Source of the DNA: Clavelina lepadiformis | Lineage: Eukaryota > Chordata > Ascidiacea > Aplousobranchia > Clavelinidae | Direction of reading: 5' to 3' | Assembly (NCBI RefSeq): GCF_947623445.1 | Contig: NC_135242.1 | Span: 24,676,001-24,740,000 of the forward strand | Length of the DNA stretch: 64,000 nucleotides | Shown here: positions 1,717 to 64,000 of the stretch, piece by piece | How positions within the stretch are numbered: the stretch's first letter is position 1 | Layout of the letters: each line of letters begins with the position of its first letter | Made by a program: the position numbers and the translations under genes | The notes under the pieces: model-generated | Database searches by the model: none | Seen by the model: only the letters and a program-made list of their open reading frames with translations | What the model was told of the DNA's origin: nothing

Positions 1717-4284
1717 TCAGTCGCAACGAAGTTTCATTTTAGTTTCTTTAAGAGGTTCACTGTATCCCTTCCAATGTTGCCAAATAATTCCATGCTTCCA
1801 TCCACTTGATTGACGCATCCAGACTCCATTGAGGTATGAATGGCCGCAGCTGACAAACCACCATCCCTGGGATCCTCCCCAGTTAGTTGCGCAGTTGTAA
1901 CCACTAATATTTTAAAACATGAAAGATTAAAATTACTTTGTTGCATCTATTTATATTCTATCTTATACGTTACTGGCAGGATATAACTGAATATCCTACT
2001 GAGGTTGTGGCGCTTAATGTTTATTGAGTTGAACATATTTGTTCCTGAACATAAGATGACGTACGTCCAGGAATCGTTGTCGCTATCTTCCGTCGAGAAT
2101 GGGCGACCATTGCTTAAGTCCATACTATCCCCGGCATTTCCGCTGTATCCGGAAACACGAAGCCGATATAAATTTTCAGCAGATTCGATCGAAAACGAGC
2201 TGCAAAAACAACAACTTGCTTTAAAAGATTCGAATCCACACAACTAAGTTGTAATTTACTCCACAAAGTTTTGCGTTGATTAATAAATGTAAGATTTTTA
2301 ACATCTTTGTTATTTATGTCACAACAATCGTCTTATGACCTATAATCGGCGTGACGTTGGTTTCCATCGAAATCCCACAGCTCTATCTTGAGTCTGCATC
2401 CTCCTCCACGCGTCATCTCGTGGATGTTGTCGAGTCCTGTAAGTAATGAAGCACGAATAATAAGAACGAAAAACATCAAAATAAAATGCGTTTAAGTTGA
2501 ACAAACTTCCTCTTACCAAGCCAAAATTCTCCATCAATCTGGCCAAAACCGTTCGCGTAGTCGGCCCATCGTCGCTCGAAACTAACACTTCCGTCAATTC
2601 TTCTTTGAAAAATCTGTTGGTAATTTGATTTTACATTTTAGCACAAGTGTAATACGTTTAATTTATATGTTTAAATCATCTTCAGTTTATTACGTCATAA
2701 TACAAGAAGTACGGCAATATTTACACTTAGCTCACAATACGCAAGATATATCTTGTCAAGTTGGATCTCTTATTCCAGTGGCATGTTCATATTGTTTGCT
2801 AACAATTTCAAGTTAAGAAAAGTTTAAACTCATATTATAAGTAGCTGTTTGCTGCAGATGATTTGGGTGAAATTAATCAGGTTTACGTGGCGCTGGTTGA
2901 ATTTCGCTCGTTTTCACTGCAAGCGACTTATGCAGTTCAATGCAATTGTTTCGCATGCTGCATAAACGAAGCGAATTAGACACAACAGTCATGTTGGCAT
3001 GCAACACAGTAATTATTAGCGCACAGTGATTTTTATGCATCGTAGCATGTGACCCAATGTGGGCTTATGATCGTCTCTGCACAACCGCAAACGACTAACA
3101 CTCCCACAGCAATCATTGTTCCATTGTTGCGGATAGTTGCATTAAACTTACAAATACACGGTTATATTAAACAGTTTTCAACCCAATTGTTTGAGTTTGT
3201 CGGTAAGCGTTTTTCGAATCAACCGCAAGTTGGCAAACAACCTTCATTCAACGTTTTGGGAATTAAGTTTCAGAAAAGTGGAAAAAAGCACATTTAAAAA
3301 TGCGCGAATGCGTGTGAAAACAAATTCATTGTCGTTTGTGTTTTCTTACATTCTTGCTACAATGCAAATGAATAGCACACAACGCATTGCCGCCTTGAAA
3401 TCCACACAACTTGATAACTATAGCTTCAATACTACACAGTAAGTGTATATACTTATATGTAAACTTTTATACTTTTCAATACTACTGTAATTTCAATATA
3501 ATTTGTAAGCTATTCCAGTTATAACTGTGGAAAGATTTTCACTCACTGTCCATCCATCCTCGCAGTAAACTTCAACACCACTCGTCAAAGTGTTGCGACC
3601 CTTGCTTGCTGACGGAGAACATGACGTAATAATAGATGGTGTTGTCGTGGTAACAGTGCTGGTTGCAGTAGATGGCGTTGTCGTGGCAACTGTGGTAGTA
3701 GCCATGGTCGTGGTACTGGGAGGTGTAAGAAGCTCCTCGATTTCTGGAAACAATTTTTTGTTGTAAACAAGATTGAATTTTTCCTGCAAGGTTTCAGGTA
3801 AAACTCGCCCATAAACATACAATTAAACAAGACAACAAGCATAGACTATACCGTATGAGCGCTATATAAGTGTTTGCGCGTAGATTGTAAAATGTCTGTA
3901 GTCCACATCTTTTGGTAGGTTTATTGCAGAGTTCTTTATGCTCGCAGGAGAAATGACGATGATTAAAATAATTAATCTATGATCAGAAATCAACTTACTT
4001 GTCAGTCTGGTGACTATGTCGGTCCCTAGCGACCCCAGTGCGCACGATTCTCCTTGCATCCCCTTCTGTCCAGCTCCTCCGGGTTCTCCTTTGGCTCCTG
4101 GATCTCCCTGAGCTCCAGGAATTCCAGATTTTCCAGATCTGCCGACATCACCTTTGTCTCCTTTCTGCATGCTTGATTTGACGACGTCATCATCACAGAC
4201 AGTGGTAAGGACTTGACGACATTGTTGCGAGTAGGTCATCATGACGAAACAAGCCAATGAAAACAGAAGAATCAATCCTCTCAT
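1717..4284 (-). CDS. Ficolin-like lectin 1 (collagen plus fibrinogen-like domain), intact, 332 aa
   Basis: Secreted pattern-recognition lectin of the ficolin type; family members bind acetylated sugars on microbes and can start lectin-pathway complement. Six exons, all with GT-AG borders and matching phases: 4284-3999, 3743-3547, 2613-2517, 2436-2340, 2199-2065, 1903-1717; total 999 nt. Residues 1 to about 20 are a signal peptide, followed by Cys22 and Cys30, which could cross-link subunits. Residues 42-80 are 13 uninterrupted Gly-X-Y triplets. Exon 2 codes a Thr/Ser/Pro-rich, mucin-like linker and then the start of the fibrinogen domain (VYCEDGWT). Exons 3-6 give [32 protein letters not shown], the calcium-loop-like [10 protein letters not shown], a Cys pair around GWW, and the ending KLRCD. 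It lies in a tandem family with 28.9 and 58.9 kb. Seen: all motifs. Inferred: ligand and complement role. Confidence 0.88.
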
Positions 4285-4344
4285 GGTTGACTATGAAGAT
4301 CTTCCGTTGAAGTTGATGATATGAAATCCTACCAAATCGCTGCT

Positions 4345-8710: not shown

Positions 8711-10436
8711 AGATTTGGAAGATACGCATTTTGCTGATCAGATTCTTGGATAAGCTGAAGGAAAAACTCAATCCAAAAAGTAAGTAATGAAGGAATTTAC
8801 TCAACAGAATCAACCTACTAACTCAGTTGAAATAATGCTCGTTTAAAGAAAATGCAGCAAGATTTCATTTCGTTCTATGACTATGACACCTGATAGTTTG
8901 TAAATAATATTCATACATCAGGTGTATTACCTTATGGATGGTGGCTGATTCAAACAGCAAATGCATTGCAACGTTGGTTTTTGATTTTTGATAAATCCCA
9001 ATACTTGACAGATTTGTTATTATTAGGACGTGCATACACGCTAACAGAGCACAAGGTCAATGAGACAAACAACAACGTACTTCGTCATAGCCTGGAACTC
9101 ACCGACAGGAAACAATCAAACGTTCGAATTAAGCGAACCGTTCCAAATTTTTAAACGACAACAGGCCCACAGCATTTGAGGTGATGATAATATACAATAT
9201 CCATTATTCTATAGCAGGAGCGTGTAAACATTATAGGCCTATTAGTGCTTTATTATAAATCGACTCTAACAATCTTAGTTTGTGTTATTTCTACAAAACT
9301 TACACGAAATCGAATGGTTTCATAAACTTTAATTTGTGTAATTTTCAAGAAGCGCGCTTAATACTTTGGTGCTCACTCATGCGCGACGCGTTATATTTAT
9401 CATGATTTGTCATTGTTGTTGACCAGTGATTATAAAATAAACTTACCGTACACACTAAGTTGGGTTGTTTGTTGATTTCTCAAATTTTAATTGTTATATT
9501 CTTTCTATTTCTAACGCATATTGCTTACAGAAAGACGTTTACAACATTAAATTATTATGTTGTAATTCTTAGATAGCAGAATGGTTATGTTCCGCATTTC
9601 TTGTCGTGATCCTCTTACTTTCCATGTGACCAGAGATGACGGGGATTCGGCAACCATGACATGCTGGAGATCATGGAGTTCCTCAAACCTGATACCCAGA
9701 CTGACCAGAGTCATGGTCCATTGGCATTCCTATAATGAGACTTATCAATCTAGAAACTATAGACGCTTCTCAGAGGTGGGCAGTATGTACGTTGAAAGTA
9801 TCGTCGGTAACGGTACCGTTACTTGGCAAAAAATGTACCGACGTTTCCGGTATTTGGTATTTGGTTTTCGGTATTCGGCTGCTATTTAAAAAAGTAGTTC
9901 GGTACTTTTTCGGTACTCGGTACCGGTACATTTTGTTTAAAAGATGCTGCTGCAAATGCAATGTTTGCCGCTATTATGACCCGGTAAAAGTTACTTCAGG
10001 TCAAAACATATGTGACGTTACTCGCTTGCAATTTTACTGGACATTTCTTGACTAAAAAAGACCAACAGATGCTAAAATTGACATTAAAGGTTTAATTAGC
10101 ACGTATTTTTGAAAACATACTTGTTAAAATTAGGAAATAATCACGTGAAAAGTACCCAGTACCGGGACTGATACCAAATACAAATTTTTGAAAAAGGAAT
10201 TCGGTTCAGAGAATCGGTACTTTTTTTAAAAGTACCGACGGTACTGAAAAAGTACCGTGGTACAGTTATTCGTTACTATTCGGTGGTACTACAGTATTCG
10301 GTACTATAGTACTGCGGTACTGCCCACCTATGACGCTTCTCTAGGCGCAGAACTGGACCAACTGGACACTTAATAAAGTTATCCGAATGTTTCAGGCGGA
10401 AACCGTTTCAGACGCTGAGTACGTATTTGGAGTAGG
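8711..10436. repeat. Tandem repeat unit U2 (~1.73 kb)
   Basis: Second copy of the block, head-to-tail with U1. At its right end (about 10395-10503) there is an exon-like piece: TTTCAG acceptor, 36 open codons rich in Leu/Ile/Lys, then an AAA-GTAAGT donor. The same piece, diverged, lies at about 8670-8780. The unit carries the hAT MITE copy at 9771-10332, inserted at exactly the same base as in U1, so the insertion happened before the unit was duplicated. Confidence 0.75.
9771..10332. mobile_element. hAT-type MITE rich in GGTACC, copy in U2
   Basis: Same element as at 8087, 562 bp, with ends CAGAGGTGGGCAGT and ACTGCCCACCTATG and the same flanking 8-bp duplication ACGCTTCT (9763-9770 and 10333-10340). 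It was copied with the host unit rather than inserted twice. Differences from the U1 copy are mostly in the number of GGTAC-type words in the interior. Confidence 0.85.
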
Positions 10437-11110
10437 GATTTGGAAGATACACATTTTGCTGATCAGATTCTTGGATAAGCTGAAGGAAAAACTCAATCCA
10501 AAAAGTAAGTAATTAAAGAATTTTCCCAACAGAATAAAACTACTAACTCAGTTGAAATAATGCTCGTTCAAAGAAAATGCAGAAAATTTTTAATTTAATC
10601 CATAGCTATGACACCTGACAGTTTGGAAATATTCATACATCAGGTGTATTACCTTATGGATGGTGGCTGATTCAAACAGCAAATGCATTGAAACGTTGTT
10701 TTTTAAAAATTCACATACGTACTTGATAGAATTGTTATTACCATAACGCTCATATACACTAACAGAGCACAAGATCAATGAACAAAACAACAACGTACTT
10801 CGTCATAGCCTGGAACTCATCGACAGGAAACAATCAAACTTTTGAATGAAGCAAACTCTTCCACAATCTTTAACGACGACAACAGACCCATACATTTGAG
10901 GTGATGATAATATGAAGTATCGATTATGCAATAGCGGGTCTTGCTATAACTTTACATTAACACTCTATTATAAACCGACTCTAACAATCTTACTTCGCAC
11001 TAATTCTTGTGCATTTATTCATAAAATCAAATGACGTCATAAACAATACTTTATGTACTTTTCCAAAACCGTGCGCGCTCATTACGTGGTGATCACTCAT
11101 GCGTGACGTG
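10437..11110. repeat. Tandem repeat unit U3 (partial)
   Basis: Third, incomplete copy of the same block. It keeps the exon-like piece at its left edge and the conserved words around 10760-10850 but ends near 11110, before the point where the MITE sits in U1 and U2. From about 11110 to 11300 I see only AT-rich sequence with nothing recognisable. Confidence 0.7.
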
Positions 11111-11302
11111 ATATGTTTTCCGTGATTTCATCAATTTAGTTAATTTTCGTGTTATTATTTTATCACTTTAAACATTGTGCAGTAGCTTACTTCAACTTCT
11201 CAGTTCACAAAAATAACCGAACATCTATTAATATGTCATAAATGACAACAAGTAATTTTAACATTGGTCCATTTCATACATTTACTTTGCTTTGCTTTAG
11301 TA

Positions 11303-13555: not shown

Positions 13556-16500
13556 ATGTCAATCTTTAAAAAGGCCCACAAGAGTCCTGCTGACATTGTC
13601 AAAAGTCTCAAATCGGTTCTTCATGTTTTGTTCGAACAACAAACGAGTGGGAAAAAAATGGACAAGGTAACGACAATATTTTGGTTCGTTTGCAAGCGCT
13701 GTCATTACGATTCTGTTTTATGTTAAGGCTCATTGTTCTTGAAAACACTTCAGATACGTGGTTTTACACATTTTCATTTTCAATGGTTTTCTTTATCACT
13801 CTACAAGCGTTTCAATGCTTCCTTGCCTAATGCCATGCACAAGATCATGTGCAGATTTTGCTAATTTGTAATTAATTGGAAGAACGAATTACGCAGGGAA
13901 ATTTTTTTATTTTTAACCAATCCCAGTTAAATACAGAACAGCGTCCTTTGATACGTCCTGTTACCTATTTAGTGTTCATTGTCAAATTGTTCCACGACTA
14001 ACAATCATTCTATTTCAGTTGTTTAACTACTTTAAATCTAGACGAAAATAGCCATTAGCGATTGATAATAATTTTTGCTTTCAGGCTTTCGAAGATCCGA
14101 TGAAGAACCTGGCTTCGATGAAGTCAATCATGTGTGGCACCGATCAACACGAGCCGCAATCCGAGCTCGTGGCTCAACTCTCCCAAGAACTATACAAGAG
14201 CGAAATCATCTACATAATTTTGACAAACTTGTCTCGGATTGATTTTGAGGTTGTGAACTATGTGTGCGTGCTGTATATGTACTTGTAATTTTTCCAAGTT
14301 CATCAAAGTTATGAAACCTGTGCAGTTAAATCGTCGTTCCAGCTATTTTAATGATTTTAACATTATCAGGGTAAAAAAGATTTCACACAAATCTTCAATA
14401 CGTTAGCGAGACGACAGATTGGCAGCAGACAACCCACCGTCGAATTTTTATGTAAGAAGAAGAACATATTGGACATCTTAGTTGAAGGGTAGGTTGCATG
14501 TTCGTGCATGTTAGTATCGTTCATTTAAAGTCGAAGAAGAAGATTTTATTTCTCACTAAATCTCACTTAACGTTCATTGTTTTTGTGATTTTTCGGCAGA
14601 GTTTTTCAGCATAAAACCAAACAGAATCATTCATAAAGGTTCCCACTTTTCTTTCTCCAGATACAATGACCCAGACATTGCCTTAAACTGCGGCATTATG
14701 CTGAGGGAGTGCATTCGATATGAATCCCTCGCAAAAATTGTTTTCGAGTCTGAGAACTTTTTTAAGTTCTTCGAATACGTTGAGATGTCCACTTTTGATA
14801 TTGCATCGGATGCCTTTGCCACCTTTAAGGTTAGTTTGCTTTTGCTGGAGTCGTTTGCTCAAAATTAAGATTGTCGATGTTGTTGTAAAATTGGATTAAT
14901 TTTTACACAGGACCTGCTGACACGGCATAAAGTTTTCTGCTCTGAATTTTTGATTAAAAACTACGACAGAGTGTTCCCAGCTTACACCCGCTTGCTTGAG
15001 TCGGAAAATTACGTGACTCATTGTCAATCACTCAAGGTTCGTTGCTTCAAAGTATCTGCCGTTTTATCTTAAAAATTGATGTCTATGTGTTAGCCTAAAT
15101 CACTTCAGAAACTCTAATATATTTCCACCAATACTATACAGTGTTGACCTGTACAAGTGTATGTATATGCATAGGTTGTGCATTCTGAAATTTTGTTGCT
15201 GTTTTATTCACCAATACGATGCGTAAATGAGCTTTTTGCTTGAAAAGTTCTTTCCTTTTAATATTACCTCATACATGTAAACTGAAAATAGTGTGACAAT
15301 AATTGCTGTGGAATCTTGGTGTTTGGTGTTCCAAACACAACCCCCTTTAAGAGTAGGTCCCAAAAAAATGGCCCCATCACCTGGTGTTTGTGGTTCATGG
15401 ATTTGGCCGAAAAGTTGGCCGGTTGCATGTTAGTATCGTTCATTTAAAGTCAAAGAAAAGGATTTGATTTCTCACTAAATTTCACTTAACGGCCATTGTT
15501 TTTATGAGTTTTTCGGCATAAAACCAAACAAAATCATTCATAAAAGTTTCCACTTTTCCTTCGCAGGTACAATGACCCAGACATTGCCTTAAACTGCGGC
15601 ATTATGCTGAGGGAGTGTATTCGATATGAATCCCTCGCAAAAATTGTTTTTGAGTCTGAGAACTTTTTTAAGTTCTTCGAATACGTTGAGATGTCCACCT
15701 TTGATATTGCATCGGATGCCTTTGCCACCTTTAAGGTTAGTTTGCTTTTGCTGGAGTCGTTTTCTCAAAGTTAAATTTGTCGATCTTGTTGTAACATTGG
15801 ATTAATTTTTGCACAGGACCTGCTGACACGGCATAAAGTTTCCTGCTCTGAATTTTTGATTAAAAACTACGACAGAGTGTTCCCAGCTTACACTCGCTTG
15901 CTTGAGTCGGAAAATTACGTGACACGTCGTCAATCACTCAAGGTTCGTTACTTCAAAGTATCTGCCGTTTTACCTTAAAAGTTGATGTCTATATGTTAGC
16001 CTAAATCAGTTCAGAAACTCTAATATATATTTCTATCAATGCTATACAGTGTTGACCTGTACAAGTATATGCATAGGTTGTGCATTCTGAAATTTTGTTA
16101 GTGTTTTATTCACCAATACGATGTGTAAATGAGCTTTTTGCTTGAAAAGTTCTTTCCTTTTAATGTTGCCTCATACATGTAAACTGAAAATAGTGTGACA
16201 ATAATTGCTGTGGAATCTTGGTGTTTGGTGTTGGTTTGGTGTTGTTCCAAACACGACCACCTTTAAGAAGAGGTCCCATCACCTGGTGTTTGTGGTTCAG
16301 GGATTTGGCCGAAAGCAAAGTTGGCCCCATTTTTCTCCAGTTGTCTATCATGATAAAGATTGTCCTAAACCCTCGTTGTACTATTCTCACAAAGACTCAC
16401 CTTATTTGCAATTTGCCATTACTAAGCTCATTTGTCCACCAGCATCATGTGATTGTGAAAGTGACTGGTCACATTAGTGAGATTATCAAACACAGTAATA

Positions 16501-17353
16501 TGCATTGGGAGTGGACAATCGGGTGATTGTGGTTCAAACACTAAGCTGGTTACCGGTCAGCTTGATTACATGTCAAAATACAAGAAAAATTGTGGGAAAA
16601 ATGATCCTATTAATCGGTTGACATTTAGTCAAGTTTCTACTGTGTGTATAAGTTACAGGCTATGCTCTGCATGTGGTGTGACAATTTCTAAGCTATGGTC
16701 GTGTAAATTTGTTATTTGGCTTTGAAAAGTGCTTTCTGGTTAGAAAGTTTGAACACACACAGAAATAGTATTGAAAAATTTGTGAATGAATGCGCTTGTC
16801 TTGTACGAGAAGATTTCCAGCTGATTGTAATCTTTATTTTATCCCGATTTCATTCAAGCTGTCTCGGATTATTGTTACAGTAGAGCACACAGCTTTTTGA
16901 GTAAAATGACCTCATAGATCATGTTAGATGTTGCATAGTTCCATGCTTAGACGCTTTACACATACCAAGCCATATGAGCCAACACATCATGTGATTTCTT
17001 GTAAAATCATATTTTATGTCCGTAGCTTACTTTGCGTTGCAAGAGCAATTACTTTCCATGTGACAATGCAATGCCTAGTTATTATGACATCATAAAGACA
17101 AAGTATGGAAGTTTAAAGACATTTCTATTTGTTTTTTTGCAACAATGTTGCATTGTTCTGTCATAAAAATATAACTGAACATGTTCATTTCTTTATAATT
17201 TATCCCCAGTTACTGGGTGAGCTACTCCTAGATCGTCACAATTACACAATTATGACGCGTTACATCAGCAAGCCCGAGAACCTCAAGATCATGATGAACA
17301 ATCTTCGTGATCAGAGCCGCAACATCCAGTTTGAAGCTTTCCACGTTTTCAAG
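13556..17353 (+). CDS. CAB39: CAB39/MO25 head, copy 1, lacking the final exon
   Basis: MO25 (CAB39) is a cytoplasmic helical-repeat scaffold that activates LKB1-STRAD and Ste20-type kinases. Exons: 13556-13666, 14085-14249, 14370-14488, then either 14661-14829 plus 14911-15036 or the duplicate pair 15567-15735 plus 15817-15942, and 17210-17353. Phases fit, giving 278 residues that follow the family closely: [14 protein letters not shown] at the start, [73 protein letters not shown]. Human MO25 continues about 60 residues beyond this point; that last exon is not found here or anywhere in the window. The next coding sequence is XPO7. Exon 2 ends in an uncommon donor (GAG then GTTGTG). Likely a truncated gene copy; it could still be transcribed. 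Confidence 0.85.
14507..15419 (+). repeat. Exon 4-5 tandem duplication in CAB39 copy 1, left member
   Basis: About 905 bp that include CAB39 exons 4a (14661-14829) and 5a (14911-15036) and their introns. The neighbour at 15420-16325 is a direct copy. Exon 5a carries changes not seen in the other copies: it reads KVFCSEF and VTHCQSLK where 5b and the unit 2 exon read KVSC and VTRRQSLK, so 5a is the diverged one. Confidence 0.85.
15420..16325 (+). repeat. Exon 4-5 tandem duplication in CAB39 copy 1, right member
   Basis: Direct copy of the block to the left, with exons 4b (15567-15735) and 5b (15817-15942). Unit 2 has only one such block, so the duplication happened in unit 1 after the large duplication, or unit 2 lost one. 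Using both pairs in one mRNA would break the frame: exon 5a ends in phase 0 while exon 4b needs two bases before it, which makes a stop after two codons. The pairs can only be used one at a time. Confidence 0.85.
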
Positions 17354-17433
17354 GTAAGACTGATCCCATGCTTACCTGAAGCGTGCCACCATGCTTAATG
17401 TAGCGGTCATGTCATTGGGTTCACCACCTAAGG

Positions 17434-17601
17434 CAGGGATGTCCAACCTGCGGCCCGCCTGAGATTTTTGTGCGGCCCGTTAGTCATTTTCACTCCAAAA
17501 GTATGTACTTTATGTACCCATTTTTCTTGAAATTTAATAGGTACATTGAATTATTTCAAGTGACAATGCGGCCCACTTTAATAAAAGGTTGGAGATCCCT
17601 G
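17434..17601. mobile_element. hAT-type MITE (168 bp) in the chimeric intron of unit 1
   Basis: Ends are CAGGGATGTCCAACC and GGTTGGAGATCCCTG, inverted repeats of each other, with an inside motif GCGGCCCG. The 8-bp duplication ACCTAAGG is present at 17426-17433 and 17602-17609. Unit 2 has the unfilled site at about 45498 with a single copy of the word (GCCTAAGG), so this is a clean presence/absence difference between paralogs. Confidence 0.9.
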
Positions 17602-17853
17602 ACCTAAGGTCAATTACCATTGGTTATGCCGATGTGAGTGACCAATTCTTTTAAAATGTCAAGTTCAATTGCTGCCTTAAAAAATTGCTCCAAATTTAAT
17701 TCAAAACGTGTTTAGTTACGGGAAAAAGAATGGTTTAAAATGGTAACTTATCTAACTTGCACTTGTGTGGTAGATTTTGTGTTGTTTTTTCTAATTTTAC
17801 AATTTCCTTTTCATATTTGCATCTAGTTTCATTCAAACGTTTTCATTTTCAAG

Positions 17854-20800
17854 GCGAAGATGAAGAGAAACTCACTCGATTCATGGTTCCTATGACGACG
17901 ACCTTTCACTCATTGCAGCAGATGTTACAAAACGCGTCAAGTAATGCGTGAGTCATCATAATGTCTACAACGCTTTCCTGAATAGCACTTTTTGTAAAGA
18001 ACCTTACCCCATTTGTACTATCCAACTGAAAACAATCCCAAATGTATATAATTATATGTATTATGATGCGTATGAAATAAAATGTGACCCAAAATGGCGG
18101 AATAAGAAATTTCTTTTGACAATGGCCCCTGGTACTTGTGCTTTTTAGCCCAAAATTATACAAAATTCTCTTTTGCAGTAAGTTGTTGCGGGCTTTTAAA
18201 TTTGATATAATTGGCACTTTAGTTTATTGGGATAATGTTGCGCCAGAAAAGTTCAGGTCTTGTCATTATCATTGCTGTCCACTTGGTGGTGTGGTGGACA
18301 TGGAGGTGGCACCGACATCGAGGTATTTAAATTTGCCGTTGTAGTGATCCCAGGCATTGATATAATGCTTGCTCTTGTCTAGAAGTCCTGGTATATATAT
18401 GATATATACTCATCCAAATTGGTGCAAGACCATATAAAATAATTTGTCAGATTGAAAATTCTACAGATAAGCAACGACTTAAGCTGTGGCTGTGAGAAAT
18501 CATTGCTTAAGTGTTGTGAAGAGTTTCTCCGTAGCGAGGATAAAAATTCCAATGCCATACTAACACATTTTTGTGCAGATTATTCTAAACAACCAAGATT
18601 TGTTAATTCCAGGACAATGTCGTCTCACGCTGTCCGCACACTTCTCGGGGTAACAAGGGACTGTCGGGGGCTCGCTTACGCTTTCAACACGAAAAGCTCG
18701 TACATGATGCTATTTGATATCATGTGAGTGACAGCGGTATGAGATGTCTATGTGATAAGTTAATGGAATGGAATTATATTTAGTGGTTTATTTGGTTTAA
18801 TTTTTTATTCCTAGATATCCGACTTTCACCGACATTCTTCAAAAATCGATTGAACTGTGGTCACATGACCCGGATGTGACAACCCCAGTTTTAAAGGTCG
18901 GTAGAAAATCTGCTGCTCTGCGCCCTCAAGTGATCTTTGTTTCGTGCAAATATTAAAAATGTTTTTGTCATTGTCAAGTGCAATGCATAGCTTTTCATTT
19001 GTGTATCCCATTGTCTGTCTTTAATTGTTTGTGTTATTCCCAACTGCATGTCCAATCTCCATCAATAACTTCATGCCAATGTGCATCTTCATCTTTAAAC
19101 AGCTTTTTGCTGAGTTGGTTTTGAAGCGAGGACAACGTTTGGACTTTGACGTCGCCTCCCCGAATGGAATATTGTTATTCAAGGAAGCCAGCAAGCTTGT
19201 CTGTGGATATGGTAGGTCAAGTATGATCACCATTTGGGAAGTTTAAAATGATTTGATTTCAGGTGTGTAAGTTTGGTATCGCGACAATTCTAAGAATTAC
19301 GGTCAGGTTTCAAATTGTTAAAAATTCCGAGGGGCGAGAGTTGGAATTGATACGTTTCTATCGCCGAGTAACCTGGCAAATTTGTGTGCCATGTGGACTT
19401 GAAGATAAATTTGTTTGCTAATTTCCAAGAATATTTCACAGATAAGTTACAGAATTCAGTGTTAATGCGAACAATGTATATCCGGCAGGTAATCGTATTC
19501 TCGCAATGGGGGAGCCACCAAAAGATCAAGTATTTTCACACCGTTTGAAAGGGATGTCGCTTTGTTTTCGCTTGCTCAAGAACGCGCTTTGTGCCGGTTT
19601 GGTCAACTTTGGTGTTTTTCAACTCTACAACGACCCGACGTTGGAAGACGCTCTCAATGTATTTGTGAAGCTCGCAACGTCAACTGACAGCTCACATTTT
19701 CTAGTAAGCGTACAACAACTGTCTTCTATAAGGTTTTATGACTTGGGTGTGTCTGTATTTATGGGTTGGGGTTAAGTTTGAGTTAAACTCTCTGCAGATT
19801 CTCTGAGTTGTAATGTACATGATCAAACAAACAGGATTAAACACCTGAAAGTTTACGAAGCATTGAAATATTTTTTTCCCTTTTATACCAGGACTACCCA
19901 AATTTGAGTTTGTCGTACTACTCCCTGCTTGAAGTTGCAATGCAGGATCACATGAACTTCGTTAGTGGGCTGCCTCCATCTGTCGTATATCACTTATTGA
20001 AGACTCTCACCGATGGACTTACTGGCCTGGGTAGGTGGCCTGGTTACTTATGTGTTGATGTGTTTGTTATTTCTATGCCAGGGTTTGAAAGAGATCATGA
20101 AACATTTTTTGAAAGATTTTGCTGTTGGTCTTGATCTTGCCGTACTTTTAACGTCTAGCTATTTCTTTTCGGTTCAGCTGGTCATTTAGCTTCGTGATCA
20201 ACTTCACCTTCCATTATTTGTGTTTCCTTGGTTTTGAATTATGACTGGCTCGAATTTCTTCATTAAAACTTTTTTTAGTTATTATGGCTAACGGGATGTG
20301 ACATATTTTTGGGCAATCTCACTGAGATATCCAAAATATTTAAGTAAATACACGAACCATACACTGGGTGAAGAAAATAATTATGTAAAATCTTGTTGTG
20401 GTCGGTCAATTTAACTCCGAACAATTTAACCAACGGTCAGTTAAACCTTCGATAAATCAACCCAAGGACCATTCAACTCGCAGATGCTGGTTGGGGTCGT
20501 CCTGGGTTTAATCGCTCGACAACCAAAGATTTTATTTAAGTGTTACGCGTATGAATTCTACGATAATTGAATTTACAACTTTCTAAAATATGCATTTTTT
20601 CCTTTCACTACTGTAGCCGGCCATTTGAAAACTTGCCAAGTACATTCCTTGTTAAGTAACAGTTCCTTTACAATGACGTAACAATCACTCCATTCACTAC
20701 ATCACTATAAGATAGCGCTGACCCACACAGCAGATAGACCCATACTTCAGCAGTTGACGTAGGTCGGGCTTATAAAATATGATGCTTGTTTCAGACACTG

Positions 20801-21828
20801 TGATATGCACTTGCTGTTGCAATACCTTGGACCACTTGGTCACTTATCTCTTTCGCATCGGCAGCCGGGCTCCAGCGCTCTCTAACGGCGACATCACGTC
20901 TGCCGTATCCCTCAAGCGGCGACATAATGAAGTGGACCGCCAACGCGAGCAGCACTTTCTTCAAATGATGATTGACAGGCCGGACATATTACAAACAGTG
21001 ACGTGGCTTCAACTTTAACAGAATATTTGTCGGTTCCAGAACGTTATTGTAGTTGTTAAAATAATAATTGTCTTATTTTTCAGGCGTTGTCAACCGTGCT
21101 TCACACAATTATGTTTGAAGATTGCCGGAACCAGTGGAGCATGTCCAGGCCTTTGTTGGGTCTTATCCTGCTCAACGAAGAGGTACTGGACGCGTGGTGG
21201 CGCTATGGTGCCCAAAAAACACTTGTTGAGATTGCAACTCTCGGCCAAGTCCATGAAAGTTTTTCTAAAATGGGACAAAAAATCTAATTCGTAGCAAATT
21301 GTTGAGTTATGTTGTTGTTAGTGAAAGAACTGCTAAGCCGTAGCTACATCGATGCATTTCCTGCAGTTTTGGCACAAAAAATTTTTAAACGCTAGACTAC
21401 ATTTAACTACGTGGCTAACCAGGAGCAGCATGATTGCATCTGGTAAAATTTTCACCTTAAACTTACGAGGATAACTTCCTTTCCACAGCACATGCCGACG
21501 CTGCAGAAGACACTCTGCGAGCCCGGGGTCGAACACGGGCGGCTGAATCTCGAGTCGGTGTCGAATTGTTTTAACCAATTGATGTTTTGCGTCGATAAGA
21601 ATCTTCATTCCAAGACACGTGACAGGTGCAATTTGCGTTGCTTCTTTAAGCTTGACATGAGCATGTGGTTGAATTTGCTGGTTGAATACCTTCTGCTTTT
21701 TCAGATTTACGCAAAATCTTTCCATGTTTCGACGAGAGGTGAACGATATAATCAAAGGAGCAGGTTCAGGTCAAAACACTGGAGTCGGACTCGATTTAAC
21801 CGCAAACAGTTCAAATATGATGACGTGA
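17854..21828 (+). CDS. XPO7: Exportin-7 C-terminal part, copy 1 (5' exons missing)
   Basis: XPO7 (RanBP16) is a HEAT-repeat nuclear transport receptor. Ten exons with matching phases: 17854-17947, 18613-18723, 18815-18896, 19103-19211, 19489-19703, 19892-20030, 20795-20997, 21084-21182, 21489-21625, 21705-21828. They code about 437 residues corresponding to the last 40% of the family (usual length near 1090). Recognisable pieces in order: [45 protein letters not shown]-like core [55 protein letters not shown], and the tail [12 protein letters not shown]. No stop or frameshift was found. The first ~640 residues are absent; the sequence upstream is CAB39 intron. Without its own start it is probably not expressed as an exportin. 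The donor after exon 7 is an uncommon GTGACG, also kept in copy 2. Confidence 0.88.
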
Positions 21829-42590: not shown

Positions 42591-45427
42591 ATGTCAATCT
42601 TTAAAAAGGCTCAAAAGAGTCCTGCTGACATTGTCAAAAGTCTCAAATCAGTTCTTCATGTTTTGTTTGAACAACAAACAAGTGGAAGAAAAATGGACAA
42701 GGTAACGACAACATTTTGGTTCGTTTGCAAGCGCTGTCATTACGATTCTGTTTTATGTTAAGGTTCATTGTGCTTGAAAACACTTCAGATACGTGGTTTT
42801 ACGCATTATCATTTTCAATGGTTTTCTTTCTTTATCACTCTACAAGTGTTTCAGTACTTTCTTGCCTAATGCCATGCACTAGATCATGTGTAAATTTTGC
42901 TAATTTGTAATTAATTGGAAGAAAAAATTACTCAGGAAAATTTTTTTATTTTTGACCAATCTCAGTTAAATGCAGAACAGCGTCCTTTGATACGTCCTGT
43001 TACTTATTTAGTGTTCATTGTCACTTTGTCCCACGACTTACAATCATTCTATTTCAGTTGTGAAACTTCTTTAAATCTAGACGAAAATAGCCGTTAGGGA
43101 TTGATAATTTTTGCTTTCAGGCTTTCGAAGACCTGATGAAGAACCTGGCTTCGATGAAGTCGATCATGTGCGGCACCGACCAACACGAGCCGCAGTCCGA
43201 GCTCGTGGCTCAACTCTCCCAAGAACTATACAAGAGCGAAATCATCGACATAATTTTGAAAAACTTGTCTCGGATTGATTTTGAGGTTGTGAACTATGTG
43301 TGCATGCTGTATATGTACTTGTAAATATTCCAAGTTCATCAAAGTTTTGAAACCTGTGCAGTTAAATCGTCGTTCCAGCTATTTTAATGATCTTAACATT
43401 ATCAGGATAAAAAACATTTCACACAAATATTCAACACGTTAGCGAGACGACAGATTGGCAGCGGGCAACCCACCGTCGAATTCTTGTGCAAGAAGAAGAA
43501 CATATTGGACATCTTAGTTGAAGGTTAGGCTGTTCATTGTTTTGAAAAAGCTTGCTAATGAAGAATTCATGTCGGTATCGTTCATTTAAAGTCGAAGAAA
43601 AGGATTTTATTTTCTCACTAAATCTCACTTAACGGCCATTGTTTTTGTGATTTTTCGGCATAAAACCAAACAGAATCATTCATATTTCTCATTTTTCATC
43701 ATTTCCTCCGCAGGTACAATGACCCTGACATTGCCCTAAACTGCAGCATTATGCTGAGGGAGTGCATCCGATACGAATTCCTCGCAAAAATTGTTTTCGA
43801 GTCTGAGAATTTTTTTAAGTTCTTCGAATACGTTGAGATGTCCACTTTCGATATTGCATCGGATGCCTTTGCCACCTTTAAGGTTAGTTTGCTTTTGCTG
43901 GAGTCGTTTTCTCAAAGTTAAATTTGTCGATGTTGTTGTAACATTGAATTAATTTTTGCACAGGACCTGCTGACCCGGCACAAAGTTTCCTGCTTTGAAT
44001 TTTTGATTAAAAACTACGACAGAGTGTTCCCAGCTTATACTCGCTTGCTTGAGTCGGAAAATTACGTGACACGTCGTCAATCACTTAAGGTTCGTTGCTT
44101 CAAAGTATCTGCCGTTTTATTTTAAAAATTGATGTCTATGTGTTAGCCTAAAAGACTTCAGAAATTCTAGCTCTAACATATATTTCTATCAATGCTATAC
44201 AGTGTTGACCTGTACAAGTGTATGTATACGTACAGGTTGTGCATTCTGGAATTTTGTTGGTCTTTTGTTCACGTATACCAGGGGTTCCCAACCTTTTTAT
44301 GTTCTCGTACCACTTAGCCACCACAGATTGTCAACAGGTACCACTATTATCAAAACAACTAATTTGATCCAATATTCGCACAGCAGCATTGTATCAATAA
44401 CAATGACAGCAGGGAGCAAGATCGACAAAAGTAGCTTACTGAGTGCAGAGAATTTAGTACGCAAAGAAATAAAAGTGTTGTTCGCATATTTTATCAACTT
44501 AAAATTAAATTGTTAACTACTATACTGTATATCGCATGCAACGGAGAGCTGCTCGCGTACCACCGGTTGGGAACCCCTAACCTATACGTTGTGTAAATGA
44601 GCTTTTTGCTTGAAAAGTTCTTTCCTTTTAATATTACCTCATACAGGTAAACTGAAAATAGTGTGACAAGAAAAATAGTGGTATTAATCAATTGAAATTT
44701 AGTCAAGTTTCTACTGTGTGTATTAGTTACAAGCTATGCTCTGCATGGGGTGTGACAATTTCTAAGCTATGGTCGTGTAAATTTGTTATTTAGCTTGGAA
44801 AAGTGCTTTCAAGTCAGTAAGTTTGAACACACACAGCAATCATGTTGAAATATTTGTGAATGAATGTGCTTGACTTGTACGAGAAGATTTTCGGTTGATT
44901 GTAGTATTTATTTTATCCCGATTTCATTCAAGCTATCTCGGATTATTGTTACAGTAGAGCACACAGCTTTTTGAGTAAAATGACCTCATAGATCATGTTA
45001 TACATTGCATTGTTGCATGCTTAACGCTTTACACATACAAAGCCATATGAGCCAACACATCATATGATTTCTTGCAAAATTATATTTTATGTCCGTAGCT
45101 TGCTTTGCGTTGCAAGAGCAATTAATTTCCATGTGATAATGCAATGCCTAGTTATTATGACATCATAAAGACAGAGTATGAAAGTTGAAAGACATTTCTA
45201 TTTGTTTTTCTGTAACAATGGTGCATTGTTGTGTCATAAAAAATATAACTGAACATGTTTATTTCATTATAATTTATCCCCAGTTACTGGGTGAGCTACT
45301 CCTAGATCGTCACAATTACACAATTATGACGCGTTACATCAGCAAGCCGGAGAACCTGAAGATCATGATGAACAATCTTCGTGATCAGAGCCGCAACATC
45401 CAGTTTGAAGCTTTCCACGTTTTCAAG
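42591..45427 (+). pseudogene. CAB39: CAB39/MO25 head, copy 2, with a lost splice donor and no final exon
   Basis: Exons 42591-42701, 43121-43285, 43406-43524, 43714-43882, 43964-44089 and 45284-45427, co-linear with copy 1 but with a single exon 4-5 pair. After exon 3 the donor is TT (43525-43526) where copy 1 has GT; the nearby GT one base earlier would shift the frame and hit a stop soon in exon 4. Some residues that are steady in the family have changed: NCSIMLREC for [19 protein letters not shown] for [10 protein letters not shown]. As in copy 1 the last exon of the family is missing and XPO7 follows. Together this suggests a decaying copy. If the donor change is an assembly error, it would match copy 1 in being truncated at the same place. 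Confidence 0.8.
44279..44579. mobile_element. hAT-type MITE (301 bp) in CAB39 copy 2 intron
   Basis: Ends CAGGGGTTCCCAACC and GGTTGGGAACCCCTA are inverted repeats. Flanking words are ACGTATAC (44271-44278) and ACCTATAC (44580-44587), an 8-bp duplication with one mismatch. Unit 1 has no element at the matching intron site. Confidence 0.85.
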
Positions 45428-45751
45428 GTAAGGCTGATCCCATGCTTACCTGAAGCATGCCACCATGCTTAATGCAGTGGTCATGTCATTGGGTTCACCG
45501 CCTAAGGTCAATGATCATTGGTTATGCCGATATGAGTGACCACTTCTTTTAAAATGTCAAGTTAAGTTGCTGCCTTTAAAACTTGCTCCAAATTTAATTC
45601 AAAACGTGTTTAGATACGGGAAAAAGAATGGTTTAAAATGGTAACTTATCTAACTTGCACTCGTGTGGTAGATTTTGTGTTTTTTTTTCTAATTTTATAA
45701 CTTCCTTTTAATATTTGCATCTAGTTTCATTCAAACATTTTCATTTTCAAG

Positions 45752-48700
45752 GCGAAGATAAAGAGAAACTCACTCGATTCATGGTTCCCATGACGACGAC
45801 CTTTCACTCATTGCAGCAGTTGTTACAAAACGCGTCAAGTAATGCGTGAGTCATCATAATGTCTACAACCCTTTCCGGAATAGCACTTTCTGTAAAGAAC
45901 CTTACCACATTTGTACTATCCAACTGAAAACAATCCCAAATGTATATAATACGTATTAAATAAAATGTGACACAAAATGGCGGAATTAGAAATTTTTTTG
46001 ACAATAGCCCCTGGTACTTGTGCTTTTTAGCTGCACAAAATTATACAGAATTCTCTTTTACAGTAAGTTGTTGCATCATTGCTGTCCACTTGGTGGTGTG
46101 GTGGACAACGAGGTGGTACCGTTATATTTAAAATTGCCGTTGTAATGTTCTCAGGCATTAATATGCCTGCTCTTGTCTAATGATCCTGGTATATATGTAA
46201 TATATACTCCTCCAAATTGGTGCAAGACCATGTAAAATAATTTGTCAGATTGAAGATTCTACAGATAAGCGACGACTTAAGCTGTGACTGCGATAAATCA
46301 TTGCTGAAGTGTTGTGAAGAGTTTCTCCTTTGCTAGGATAAAAATTCTAACATCATAATAACACAATTTTGTGCAGATTATTCTAAACAACCAAGATTTG
46401 TTAATTCCAGGACAATGTCGTCTCACGCTGTCCGCACACTTCTCGGGGTAACAAGAGACTGTCGGGGGCTCGCTTACGCTTTCAACACGAAAAGCTCGTA
46501 CATGATGCTATTTGATATCATGTGAGTGACAGCGGTATGAGATGTCTATGTGATCAGTTAATTGAATGGAATTATATTTACTGGTTTATTTGGTTTAATT
46601 TTTTATTTCTAGATATCCGACTTTCACCGATATTCTTCAAAAATCGATTGAACTGTGGTCACATGACCCGGATGTGACAACCCCAGTTTTGAAGGTCGGT
46701 AGTAAATTCGCTGCTTTGCGCCCTCAAGTGATCTTTGTTTCGTGCAAATATTAAAAATGTTTTTGTTATTGTCAAGTGCAATGCACAGCTTTCCAGTTGT
46801 GTATCCCATTGTCCGTTTTTAATTGTTTTTGTTATTCCCAACTGCATGTCCAATCTCCATCAATAAATTAATGCCAATGTGCTTGACATCTTCATCTTTA
46901 AACAGCTTTTTGCTGAGCTGGTTTTGAAGCGAGGACAACGCTTGGACTTTGACGTCGCCTCCCCGAATGGGATATTGTTATTCAAGGAAGCCAGCAAGCT
47001 TGTCTGTGGATATGGTAGGTCGAGTGTGATCAGCATTTGGGAAGTTTAAAATGATTTGATTTCAGGTGTAAGTTTGGTATCGTGACAATTCTAAGAATTA
47101 CGGTCAGGTTTCAAATTGTTAAAAATTCAGAAGGGTGGGAGTTGGAATTGATGCGTTTCTATCGCCGAGTAACGTTGCAAATTTGTGTGCCAAGCATGTG
47201 GACTTGAAGATAAATTTGTTTGCTAATTTCAAAGAATTTTTCACAGGTAAGTTACAGAATTCAGTGTTAATGCGACCAACTTACACCCGGCAGGTAATCG
47301 TATTCTCGCAATGGGGGAGCCACCAAAAGATCAAGTATTTTCACACCGTTTGAAAGGGATGTCGCTTTGTTTCCGCTTGCTCAAGAACGCGCTTTGTGCC
47401 GGTTTGGTCAACTTTGGTGTGTTTCAACTCTACAACGACCCTACATTGGAAGATGCTCTCAATGTATTTGTGAAGCTCGCGATGTCAACCGACAGCTCAC
47501 ATTTTCTAGTAAGCGTACAACAACTGTTTTCTTTAAGGATTTATGACCTGGATGTGTCTGTATTTATGGGTTGGGGTTAAGTTTGAGTTAAACTTTTTGC
47601 CATCCCCTGAGCTGTAATGTTCATAATCAAACAAACAGGTATAAACACCTGAAAGTTTACAATGCATTGAAATATTTTTACCTTTTTATACCAGGACTAC
47701 CCTAAGTTAAGTTCGTCGTACTACTCCCTGCTTGAAGTTGCAATGCAGGATCACATGAACTTCGTTAGTGGGCTACCTCCATCTGTCGTATATCACTTAT
47801 TGAAGACTCTCACTGATGGACTTACTGGCCTGGGTAGGTGGCCTGGTTACTTATGTGTTGATGTGTTTGTTTATTTATATGCCAGGGTTTGAAAGAGATC
47901 ATGGAAACATTGTTTGAAAGATTTTGCTGTTTGTCTTAATCTTGCCGTATTTTTAACGTGTAGCTATTTCTTTTGGGTTCAGCTGGTCATTTAGCTTCGT
48001 GATCAACTTCAACTTCCATTATTTGTTTTTCCTTGGTTTTGAATTATGACTGGTTCGATTTTCTTGATTAAAACTTTTTTAGTTATTATGGCTAACGGGA
48101 CGTGACATATTTTTGGGCAATCTGACTGAGATATCCAAAATAATTAAGTAAATGCACGAGCCATACACTGGGTGAAGAACATAATTATGTGAAATCTTGT
48201 TGTGGTCGGTCAATTTAACTCCGAACAATTTAATCATCGGTCAGTTAAACCTTCAATAAATCAACCCAAGGACTATTCAACTCACAGATGCTTGTTGGGG
48301 TCGTCCTGGGTTTAATCGATCGACAACCAAACTTTTTATATTAAGTGTTACGCGAACGAAGTTTACAACATTTGAGTTTACAACTTTCTAAAAATGCCGG
48401 AAACTGTTTTTTTTTAAATCATGCATTTTTCCATGTCACTACTGTAGCCGACCATTTGAAAACTTGCAAAGTGCATTCTTTGTTAAGTAACACTTCCTTT
48501 ACAATGACGTAACAATCACTCCATTCACTACATCACTATAAGATAGCACTGACCCACACGGCAGATAGACCCATACTTCAGCAGTTGACGTAGGTCGGGC
48601 TTATAAAATATGACGCTTGCTTTCAGACACTGTGATATGCACTTGCTGTTGCAATACCTTGGATCACTTGGTCACTTATCTCTTTCGCATCGGCAGCCGT

Positions 48701-59599: not shown

Positions 59600-61094
59600 T
59601 GTGCATGCATGACCTGATATGTATTGATCGTCGTCGACACATATTCATCTTTTTATTGGTCCGCACAAGTTAAGCCAAATACCTACATTCTGCAAGATTG
59701 AGCCAATTCACTGAACTCAAATGCCTTTTTTTGACGCAGTTGCCCAGTGCATTGTAGTTATCGTCGTATTTCTTTTCTGTTGTCATTGTATTATTTTATT
59801 GTACTGTGGGGCCTTGGTTATAAAAAAGCTCACAAATTCCGTTCAAAATCTCAGTCAACAATTAAAGTTTTAAGCATGGAGGTACATGAGTCGTTTCACA
59901 AAAGATAAGCTGTTTGCTCATGTTGTAATATTCTGTAAAGTCGTTATAAATAACTTAAAATCATAGCAATTGATGAAATCGACAGCAAGGTAAGAAAGTT
60001 CACAGCTAGAAACAGTTATGGATCGCTTCTCGGTTTGAACCGCCCATGTAATAGCAACTTTATCGAACACGCACCTTCCGATCTGGAGTTCACATAAAGT
60101 TTACACAACAACCACCTACGCATAAGAGAAATTAATTGCTTGAGGCAACGCAATTTTTCTCTGCTGATAATTCTCAGATTACCTGATGATATCATCATAG
60201 TGGTATCACTTAGTTTCCTGGTATTGTTTTATTTTTAATGTATTTTTACTTGGAGTTCCATGTTATCATTGAACCATTTAGCCATTTAGCTTTATCTTTA
60301 TGTTACCGTACTTTTGTAATTCGTCAGAGCAATGTTGAAGTATATATATTTGAAAATCACGTTGTCTCCCTTTTAGCTGGCTTCTGAAAATGGCGCTTTT
60401 TTTCTTTCAAACATTTTCAAGAATATGTCATCCCGCTTTTTTTAGATCGACTTGTTCATGTTTTTTTTGGAGATTTTATCATTTTGCACCATTATTTGGC
60501 ACTTTGTTGCATCGTATCCATTGTGTTACCTCGCAAAACAATTATCAATTTTTCAAAAAAACTTTATCATTAGCAACCACATCTGAACGAAGCCTTTATA
60601 TAAATTTCCTCATTTGATTTTCGAAAGATTTATGCCGGTGTCCAGGTGCAAAAAACGTCAAAGGTAAAAGTTCTCAAAATATTGCAGGAACTAAGTTTAA
60701 GGTTTCACGTTATTCCGCCTTGAATAACCAATCAGATGAAAAATTACGTATTTCATGTTGTAGAACATGTGTTTTGTGCCCAAATGTTTTCACAGCATAC
60801 GACACATTTACAACAACAGCATGTTGCTTTGTATTGTTGTTTACCAAATCGACATTCTACATATCATATTGTAAAAACATTAACTCCAATTTTTTCTTCC
60901 AATTAAAAAAATTCTACTAACACAGATCTCACGTTTAAAATCAAAGAAAAATCTGATATTACCTAAGTGTATTCAAATTTTAAAAAATCAGATTCTGTCA
61001 AATCAATGTCTTCTGACAAAGCTGATATAATTTAATCAATCTGTTAGCTTATTTCAAATATATTTGATCTCTATTTTTTGTTATATCTGTAAAG
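59600..61094. other. End of unit 2 and junction to XPO7 copy 3
   Basis: Up to about 60640 this matches 29604-30640, including a decayed form of the 30415 open stretch (acceptor AG lost). From 60640 to 61094 I see no exon; the XPO7 exons expected upstream of 61095 are not here, so XPO7 copy 3 is also cut on its 5' side. Confidence 0.5.
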
Positions 61095-64000
61095 GTATAC
61101 AAAAGGCTAGGCGAAGTGTTGAACCTTACAGATGAATCGGCCATTTTAGGTATCTTTGTTTCAAAAATGTGAGTATAAGTCGTCCTCGTATTGCCTAGCC
61201 ATGCTTGTGTAATGCGTTGTCTATGCTTTTTGTATGCATTCACCAACTATCTGTTGCAGTATAACCAACTTGAAATATTGGAGCAACAATGAGCAGATTT
61301 TGACGGGAACGCTTCGTCTTCTCGGTGATTTATCAATTGGCTTCAGTTCTGTGAGAAAACTCGTGAAATTAGGAACAATTCGCTTCCTGTTGGAAAATGA
61401 CCCGGTAAATCGAATACCTTGATAAAATTTGGGTTCCTTCATTTACAGCTTTGGCTTATATTTGCTTACTCACTTACAAGCCAAAGGGTAACAAAATGAA
61501 GATTGGTGCTGTTCTAAGCATGTTAATGTACTTGGGACCACTTTACTAATGGCACATATCCACACTTGCTTTGGTGACTTGTAGTGTTTATTTCAACTGA
61601 GCACAAGATTTTTAACTTGCAGAGCTCTCATTTTCCTTTCTTGAATGTCGATTCAAAAATCTCTGATCTTCGATGTCGGACAACTTTCTACACTTCCCTT
61701 GGGAGGTTGCTTCTTGTTGATTTGGGTAGGTTATGAAAATAATCATATAATCATCCATTTTTATCCAAATTTAGTCCAAAACGTGGTTAGATACTGGAAA
61801 AAGAATGGTTTAAAATGGTAACTTATCTAACTTGCATTTGTGTGGTAGATTTTGTGTTGTTTTTTCTAATTTTACAATTTCCTTTTCATATTTGCATCTA
61901 GTTTCACTCAAACATTTTCATTTTCAAGGTGAAGATGAAGAGAAACTCACTCGATTCATGGTTCCCATGACGACGACCTTTCACTCATTGCAGCAGATGT
62001 TACAAAACGCGTCGAGTAATGCGTGAGTCATCATAATGTCTACAACACTTTTCTGAATCGCACTTTCTGCAAAGAACATTACCCCATTTGTACTATCCAA
62101 CTGAAAACAATCCCAAATGTGTATAATTATATACATATGAAATAAAATGTGACAAAAGGGCGTAATAAAAATTTTTTTGACAATGACCCTGGTACTTGTG
62201 CTTTTTAGCCCAAAATTATACAGACTTCTCTTTTAAGTTGTTGCGTGCTTTTAAATTTTCACCATTTGATATAATTGGAACTTTAGTTTATTGGGATAAT
62301 GTTGCACCAGAAAGGTTCGGGTCTCGTCATTATCATTGCTGTCCACTTGGTGGTGTGGTGGACATCGAGGTGGCACAGTTAATATTTAAAATTGCCGTTG
62401 TAGTGATCCCAGGCGTTGATATAATGCTTGCTCTTGTCTAGAAGTCCTGGTACAGTATATATATAATATATACTCCTCCCAATTGGTGCAAGACCATATA
62501 AAATAATTTGTCAGATTGAAGATTCTACAGATAAGCGACGACTTAAGCTGTAGCTGCGAGAAATCATTGCTGAAGTGTTGTGAAGAGTTTCTCCGTCGCG
62601 AGGATAAAAATTCCAATATCATACTAACACATTTTTGTGCAGATTATTCTAAACAACCAACATTTGTTAATTCCAGGACAATGTCGTCTCACGCTGTCCG
62701 CACACTTCTTGGGGTAACAAGGGACTGTCGGGGGCTCGCTTACGCTTTCAACACGAAAAGCTCGTACATGATGCTATTTGATATCATGTGAGTGACAGCG
62801 GTATGAGATGTCTATGTGATAAGTTAATGGGATGGAATTATATTTAGTGGTTTATTTGGTTAAATTTTTTATTTCTAGATATCCGACTTTCACCGACATT
62901 CTTCAAAAATCGATTGAACTGTGGTCACATGACCCGGATGTGACAACCCCAGTTTTAAAGGTCGGTAGAAAATCCGCTGCTTAGCGCCCTCAAGTGATCT
63001 TTGCTTCGTGCAAATTTTAAAGTAAAAAATGTTTTTGTCATTGTCAAGTGCAATGCATAGCTTTCCAGTTGTGTATCCCATCGTCCATCTTTATTTGTTT
63101 TTGTTATCCCCAACTGCATGTCCAATCCCCCATCAATATATTCGTGCCAATGTGCTTGACATCTTCATCTTTAAACAGCTTTTTGCTGAGATGGTTTTGA
63201 AGCGAGGACAACGTTTGGACTTTGACGTCGCCTCCCCGAATGGAATATTGTTGTTCAAGGAAGCCAGCAAGCTTGTCTGTGGATATGGTAGGTCAAGTGT
63301 GATCATCATCTGGGAAGTTTAAAATGATTTGATTTCAGGTGTGTAAGTTTGGTATCTCGACAATTCTAAGAATTACGGTCAGGTTTCAAATTGTTAAAAA
63401 TTCCGAGGGGCGAGAGTTGGAATTGATAAGTTTCTATTGCCGGGTAACCTGGCAAATTTGTGTGCCATGTAGACTTGAAGATAAATTTGTTTGCTAATTT
63501 CCAAGAATATTTCACAGATAAGTTACAGAATTCAGAGTTAATGCGACCAACTTATATCCGGCAGGTAATCGTATTCTCGCAATGGGGGAGCCACCAAAAG
63601 ATCAAGTATTTTCTGACCGTTTGAAGGGGATGTCGCTTTGTTTCCGCTTGCTCAAGAACGCGCTTTGTGCCGGCTTGGTCAACTTTGGTGTTTTTCAACT
63701 CTACAACGACCCGACGTTGGAAGATGCTCTCAATGTATTTGTGAAGCTCGCGACATCAACCGACAGCTCACATTTTCTAGTAAGCGTACAACAACTGTTT
63801 TCTATAAGGTTTAATAACTTGGGTGTGTCTGTATTTATGGGTTGGGGTTAAGTTTGAGTTAAACTCTCTGCACATTCCCTGAGCTGTAATGTACATAATC
63901 AAACAAACAGGATTAAACACCTGAAAGTTTACAATGCATTGATATATTTTTACACTTCTATACCAGGACTATCCTAAGTTAAGTTCGTCGTACTACTCCC
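61095..64000 (+). CDS. XPO7: Exportin-7 C-terminal half, copy 3, longer 5' side, runs off the window
   Basis: Exons 61095-61168, 61260-61404 and 61623-61725 are absent from copies 1 and 2: they code [16 protein letters not shown], then [20 protein letters not shown] to [14 protein letters not shown], and [20 protein letters not shown] to LLLVDLG, all matching the middle of XPO7 in order. Then follow the exons shared with the other copies: 61929-62022, 62677-62787, 62879-62960, 63179-63287, 63565-63779, and 63967 to the window end. Phases fit throughout and no stop was found. Exons for roughly the first 560 residues are not present upstream, where ficolin and gene W lie instead. The acceptor before 61095 (TCTGTAAAG) is weak. 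This copy shows what the XPO7 intron looked like before the CAB39 join. Confidence 0.85.

Follow-up and report, generated by a model that had tools for sequence, protein, structure and literature searches.

Organisation of the locus

The window, i.e. the whole stretch of 64,000 nucleotides that was analysed, corresponds to C3:24676001-24740000 on chromosome 3 (C3) of Clavelina lepadiformis. It contains two chimeric loci, copies A and B, in which exons 1-6 of CAB39 (E1-E6; the gene of the MO25 protein) are followed by exons of exportin-7 (XPO7; X1-X10), and a 5'-truncated XPO7 without CAB39, copy C. These features are as follows.

13556..13666, plus strand: CAB39 exon 1 of copy A, starts MSIFKK (alignment to the complete CAB39; ATG and GT donor present)
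14085..14249, plus strand: CAB39 exon 2 of copy A (alignment to the complete CAB39)
14370..14488, plus strand: CAB39 exon 3 of copy A, ends in phase 2 (alignment to the complete CAB39)
14661..15036, plus strand: CAB39 exons 4a (14661-14829) and 5a (14911-15036) of copy A, first of a duplicated pair (alignment, self-alignment)
15567..15942, plus strand: CAB39 exons 4b (15567-15735) and 5b (15817-15942) of copy A, second of the pair (alignment to the complete CAB39)
17210..17353, plus strand: CAB39 exon 6 of copy A, ends FHVFK in phase 0 (alignment to the complete CAB39)
17434..17601, plus strand: dispersed element of 168 bp in intron 6 of copy A (sequence and places in the genome)
17689..17689: the join, CAB39 intron 6 on the left and XPO7 intron on the right (local alignments)
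17854..17947, plus strand: XPO7 exon X1 of copy A, starts in phase 1; after CAB39 it reads as a 13-residue tail
18613..21828, plus strand: XPO7 exons X2-X5 (18613-18723, 18815-18896, 19103-19211, 19489-19703) and X6-X10 (19892-20030, 20795-20997 with its last base differing, 21084-21182, 21489-21625, 21705-21828) of copy A, open in the XPO7 frame
42591..45427, plus strand: CAB39 exons 1-6 of copy B, exon 3 donor changed from GT to TT (alignment to the complete CAB39)
45587..45845, plus strand: copy B, the same join at 45587 and X1 at 45752-45845 (alignment)
60619..64000 and beyond the window, plus strand: copy C, human XPO7 residues from about 557 on (alignment)

Local alignments against the complete CAB39 locus, copy C and the complete XPO7 gene place the switch from CAB39 intron 6 to the XPO7 intron at position 17689, with an overlap of 1 base. 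An earlier note, made from the letters of the window, had put the join near 17690 and had matched the intron to the right of it with 61765 onward; the homology to the right is indeed with copy C, from 61764 on, and with the complete XPO7 gene. A sharp switch between two genes inside their introns, as found here, is what a chimeric fragment from a segmental duplication should look like. The last CAB39 exon, which the same note had reported missing, is not seen in the window either, as a tblastn search with human CAB39 gave no match past residue 280 at E<1. The observation of a chimeric CAB39-XPO7 locus without the last CAB39 exon is thus confirmed, even though the interpretation attached to it is only partly supported.

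The two halves of the locus are out of frame with each other. E6 ends in phase 0 and X1 requires one base, so that a direct splice in copy A gives FHVFK, then exactly 13 residues (about 13 foreign residues and a stop had been predicted) and then a stop. Since X1 starts in phase 1 and the CAB39 exons E1-E6 end in phases 0,0,2,0,0,0, the XPO7 frame at X1 cannot be recovered by skipping any CAB39 exon. The frame would be kept by a splice from E3 (phase 2) to X2 (phase 2), or from a phase-0 exon to X4, X6, X8 or X9, but each of these needs several skips; we judged them unlikely. The XPO7 part itself, X1-X10, is free of stops in its own frame in copy A, and none of its splice sites is flagged. It forms a continuous C-terminal part resembling the human protein, and the fused copies differ from exportin-7 in having no N-terminal part and in being out of frame with CAB39.

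Near 60605-60619 the left edge of copy C adjoins the region upstream of a ficolin-like gene, and three other unfused XPO7 copies (the complete gene and those at 24.916 and 24.963 Mb) match copy C from about there on. Intron 6 of copy A carries, in addition, an element of 168 bp that is missing from intron 6 of the other aligned copies. Its ends are 16-bp inverted sequences (15/16 matching), it is flanked by an 8-bp target duplication, ACCTAAGG, at 17426-17433 and 17602-17609, and at least 26 places outside the array are 91-94% identical to it, with 40 of 423 candidates scored. Inverted ends together with an 8-bp target duplication are the marks of a short hAT-like element, which we take this one to be.

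Copies of the join and the complete genes

The same join occurs at seven chromosome 3 loci, between 24.51 and 24.95 Mb, as would be expected of a chimeric fragment spread by segmental duplication. In a profile search (27 of 27 candidates scored) all Mo25 matches lie on C3 between 24.38 and 25.01 Mb, three loci having the last exon and seven not having it, and all seven truncated copies pass into XPO7 at one and the same point; the 24.598-Mb copy has an insert of about 3 kb 42 bases to the left of the join. Intact CAB39 and XPO7 loci, for which the earlier note had proposed a genome search, are both present in the same region of the chromosome. The complete CAB39 (C3:25010078-25013336, plus strand) has seven exons and encodes 337 residues; its E7, which is absent from the fused copies, has 59 codons. 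The complete XPO7 (C3:24441405-24450046, i.e. 24.441-24.450 Mb) covers human residues 6-680, except for short gaps, followed by X1-X10.

The two further CAB39 copies with the last exon, at 24.396 and 24.383 Mb, are on the minus strand and more diverged. Only their E4-E7 are alignable by DNA, and exon 1 of neither was found in the surrounding DNA examined. The copy at C3:24396207-24398907 is a mosaic with respect to the 25.010-Mb copy, as E6-E7 are 92% identical and E4-E5 only 74-78%. The C-terminal exons of XPO7 lie within the same C3 region (104 of 121 candidates scored). Its N-terminal exons, in a search that scored 42 of 114 candidates, were found at 24.441-24.445 Mb and otherwise only as single exons (human residues about 489-539) at 24.915 and 24.962 Mb; two more XPO7 pieces lie at 24.607 and 24.788 Mb. 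At a coverage of 27/27 candidates for CAB39 and of 104/121 and 42/114 for XPO7, beyond which further diverged XPO7 copies may exist, all CAB39 and XPO7 genes found in the assembly are in the C3 array region.

The ficolin-like array

The repeat units of the window lie about 25-29 kb apart and have 84-93% DNA identity. The unit includes the following gene.

1720..4290, minus strand: ficolin-like gene of the repeat unit (Pfam PF01391 and PF00147)

Its collagen exon (in 3862-4290) and its three fibrinogen C exons (in 1720-2637) probably form one gene. The array is large, with window members at 1720-4290 and 55752-58972. The collagen exon was found at 37 places on C3 between 22.49 and 25.10 Mb with 79-100% protein identity, and weaker ones are present on other contigs. 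The CAB39 and XPO7 pieces look like passengers carried within this lectin array, and we infer that the amplification of the pieces is driven by the lectin genes.

Coding capacity of the fused copies

The exon 4-5 duplication of copy A, where 14505-15330 self-aligns with 15424-16232, determines what this copy can encode. If every exon is used, the junction of E5a with E4b is out of frame and leads to a stop ('SLKVQ*') before E6 and the join. If one E4-E5 pair is skipped, the product has 278 MO25 residues and the 13-residue tail. In likeness to the MO25/CAB39 family (PF08569), this product matches the Pfam Mo25 profile over positions 2-277 of 332 (E 5.4e-109) and the solved MO25 structure 1upk over 277 residues, while the fused copies differ from the family by the missing last exon, i.e. 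59 residues, which should hold the final helical repeat. A functional MO25/CAB39 would need all repeats including the C-terminal exon, with a profile match to about position 330, which is not reached in the window, and one open frame with its splice sites, which copies A and B do not have.

The CAB39 part is broken in five of the seven fused copies, as listed here.

f506: deletion of E3-E5, 8-bp gap in E6
f598: 26-bp and 17-bp gaps
f666: no E1 found, E2 broken, loss of the E3 donor, gap of 1 bp in E6
B721 (copy B) and f891 (24.889 Mb): E3 donor changed from GT to TT

The only fused copy that gives a 291-residue product under ordinary splicing is the one at 24.944 Mb (f946). The proposal of an MO25 in which a short tail takes the place of the last ~60 residues therefore holds for f946 only, and fails for the window copy, which under all-exon splicing stops before the join.

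It is conceivable that at least one fused copy, namely f946, makes a functional short MO25 of 291 residues (residues to 278 and a 13-residue tail), which may bind STRAD or STE20 kinases and act as a competitor or as an altered scaffold. This copy has all its splice sites and one open frame. The interface residues of human MO25 described in PMC2686265 (F92, E93, K96, R107, I145, F178, S182, Y223, R227, R240 and M260) point in the same direction, since all 11 that we checked precede the join and occur in the complete CAB39 model. Moreover, copy A retains about 960 bases of sequence in front of the CAB39 start, and copies A and f946 have an AATAAA/ATTAAA signal at a distance of 222 bases from the X1 start; a short but stable transcript would therefore be possible. 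On the other hand, only one of the seven copies qualifies, and the place corresponding to human R227 is altered in f891 (R226L) and in exon 5a of copy A, which has HC there. The sequence of the 13-residue tail also varies among the fused copies. Finally, a stop in X1 would be followed by as many as nine XPO7 introns. A stop codon upstream of several introns normally marks a transcript for decay, and fused transcripts that stop in X1 would be the expected target. That copy A and f946 differ by few replacement changes (4, as against 24 silent ones) would also speak for a short MO25, but a similarly low replacement rate is found in broken copies (see below). All in all we consider a functional short MO25 improbable.

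Selection or sequence exchange

At first sight the substitution pattern suggests selection. Pairwise dN/dS values (Nei-Gojobori) are 0.02-0.20 for X1-X10 of 12 XPO7 copies and 0.04-0.30 for the CAB39 part of the seven fused copies, with the exception of a single pair that has no silent changes. None of the 12 XPO7 copies has an in-frame stop in X1-X10. As a sign of selection on the fused copies, however, the ratios lose their weight once the variants are split into shared and private ones and once the broken copies, which show a similar pattern, are considered. Among two-state sites present in at least five sequences, the shared variants are mostly silent (silent:replacement 29:8 in CAB39 and 35:7 in XPO7), as opposed to the private variants counted with the complete gene left aside (14:18 and 41:27, respectively; Fisher p 0.006 for CAB39 and 0.012 for XPO7). 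Four private replacement changes of f666 fall within the broken exon 2 of this copy, perhaps through misalignment; without this exon the CAB39 counts are 28:8 and 14:14 (p 0.033). Note that the CAB39 parts of B721 and f891 are almost the same (0 silent and 2 replacement changes), so both have low private counts.

A comparison with the introns adds a second aspect. Private replacements number 20 as against about 82 expected from the intron rate in XPO7 (8 copies), and 13 as against about 36 in CAB39 (5 copies), in a comparison that comprised 9 of the 12 XPO7 copies (without f506, f598 and x814) and 6 of the 8 CAB39 copies (without f506 and f666). Copy A has 1 private CAB39 replacement in the shared/private count and 4 in the comparison with introns, because the duplicated exon pair was aligned differently. 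Given this deficit, some copies could be constrained. However, a similar deficit is seen in the broken copies x964 (4 replacement versus 34 intron changes) and f598 (4 versus 43), two copies whose damage may be recent, and the XPO7 part of f666 (4 replacement versus 13 intron changes) is near the neutral expectation. As low dN/dS values are also found in broken copies, the ratio alone is no proof of function in an array whose members exchange sequence.

Traces of such exchange are seen along the copies. Among the same two-state sites, four-gamete incompatible pairs amount to 147 of 611 in CAB39 and 395 of 861 in XPO7. In the nine XPO7 copies used for both the nearest-relative and the AU analyses (again without f506, f598 and x814), the nearest relative switches along the length, and a single clade of fused copies is rejected (AU p 4.6e-5, in a test applied once the intermixing of copies had already been noticed). 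The XPO7 part of f666, for example, is 98.6-99.8% like that of the unfused x917 in four of seven stretches. Mosaic relationships of this kind are those of concerted evolution, by conversion or by unequal exchange, and exchange among copies explains how one join can have mixed flanks. We conclude that sequence exchange with the complete genes, in either of these forms, is probably the main source of the conserved frames.

The same data bear on the XPO7 side. The C-terminal XPO7 pieces, fused or unfused, might be expressed from internal promoters as short exportin-7 fragments, which would keep their frames open; the open frames, the low dN/dS and the nearly always intact splice sites of the 12 copies are consistent with this. 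Damage is nevertheless present, as x964 has a 1-bp deletion in X5, f506 ends in X5, f598 has no X10, and x814 has neither X1 nor an X4 acceptor, and the frames are accounted for by exchange among XPO7 copies. We consider this explanation improbable, too. Just as improbable is the broader notion that the array makes short MO25 (and short C-terminal exportin-7) proteins in many copies under selection, in which case kinase-scaffold dosage or STRAD/STE20 signalling would track the copy number of the array.

Origin of the fused copies and comparison with known systems

An assembly chimera, i.e. two real genes misjoined in a repetitive region, is hardly believable: the array is highly repetitive and the complete CAB39 and XPO7 are nearby, but the join is shared by seven loci, most of which are several per cent diverged and which are damaged differently, and the assembly was made from HiFi reads at 117-fold coverage with a QV of 67.4, according to the assembly data in PMC10884593. 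Of the refutation suggested in the earlier note, an intact CAB39 locus that exposes the join as an assembly chimera, only the first part applies: the intact locus is present, but the recurrent join is real.

Starting from the observed join, its copy number, the complete genes, the damage to the reading frames and the mosaic relationships, the explanation that we favour, with a probability of roughly 0.84, is a family of incomplete, recombined gene copies that arose via tandem segmental duplication, with frames preserved by exchange and most copies dead for MO25. A break in CAB39 intron 6 would have been joined to an XPO7 intron with a 1-base overlap, presumably by end-joining and very probably in a single event. 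The resulting fusion of CAB39 exons 1-6 with XPO7 X1-X10 would then have spread to seven copies within the ficolin-like array of chromosome 3, the fused pieces probably being carried along by the lectin genes. The copies appear to exchange sequence among themselves and with the complete genes, and as a result of this exchange the reading frames would look conserved even though most copies are dead for MO25. The fused transcripts would presumably decay, and the fused copies would have no protein function. The CAB39-XPO7 chimera is thus real, shared, out of frame and amplified inside the lectin array, and most likely represents a set of mostly dead fragments.

It is worth comparing this family to known systems. 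The human RCCX module (RP, C4, CYP21, TNX) is, like the present array, a duplicated module of an immune region, with a pseudogene copy and with gene conversion of CYP21 (PMC3161346). In RCCX, too, truncated pieces of two genes, TNX and RP, are joined to each other. The differences are that the genes are other ones, and that in Clavelina the seven joined copies lie in a ficolin-like array in which lectin copies are far more numerous. Partial or chimeric gene duplicates, in which an intronic breakpoint joins the 5' exons of one gene to the 3' exons of another (a class discussed in PMC3449122), represent a second parallel, from which the Clavelina join differs in being out of frame, and the chimera in being amplified afterwards. 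The fused family is thus ordinary in kind. No account of the locus was found among the papers listed on CAB39-XPO7 fusion, on the Clavelina genome or tandem duplication in it, on ascidian ficolin clusters and on chimeric genes. The locus would offer a clear example of a duplicating immune gene array that carries and fuses pieces of neighbouring housekeeping genes, and in which exchange blurs the distinction between dead and living copies. In terms of annotation, short or fused CAB39 and XPO7 models in this region should not be counted as new proteins.

Three other features of the window are mentioned for completeness. An open frame at 54264-54653 contains 'GGYTKYPCFICYWDSRA', which resembles part of a transposon protein, and has no Pfam match. 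Two open frames at 31477-32768, also without a Pfam match, have a signal-like stretch in common, IIRSFILMVI.LN.LSIVA.ET.SGE. At 7039-11128, inside the repeat unit, some 2.4 kb are directly repeated with 81-84% identity.
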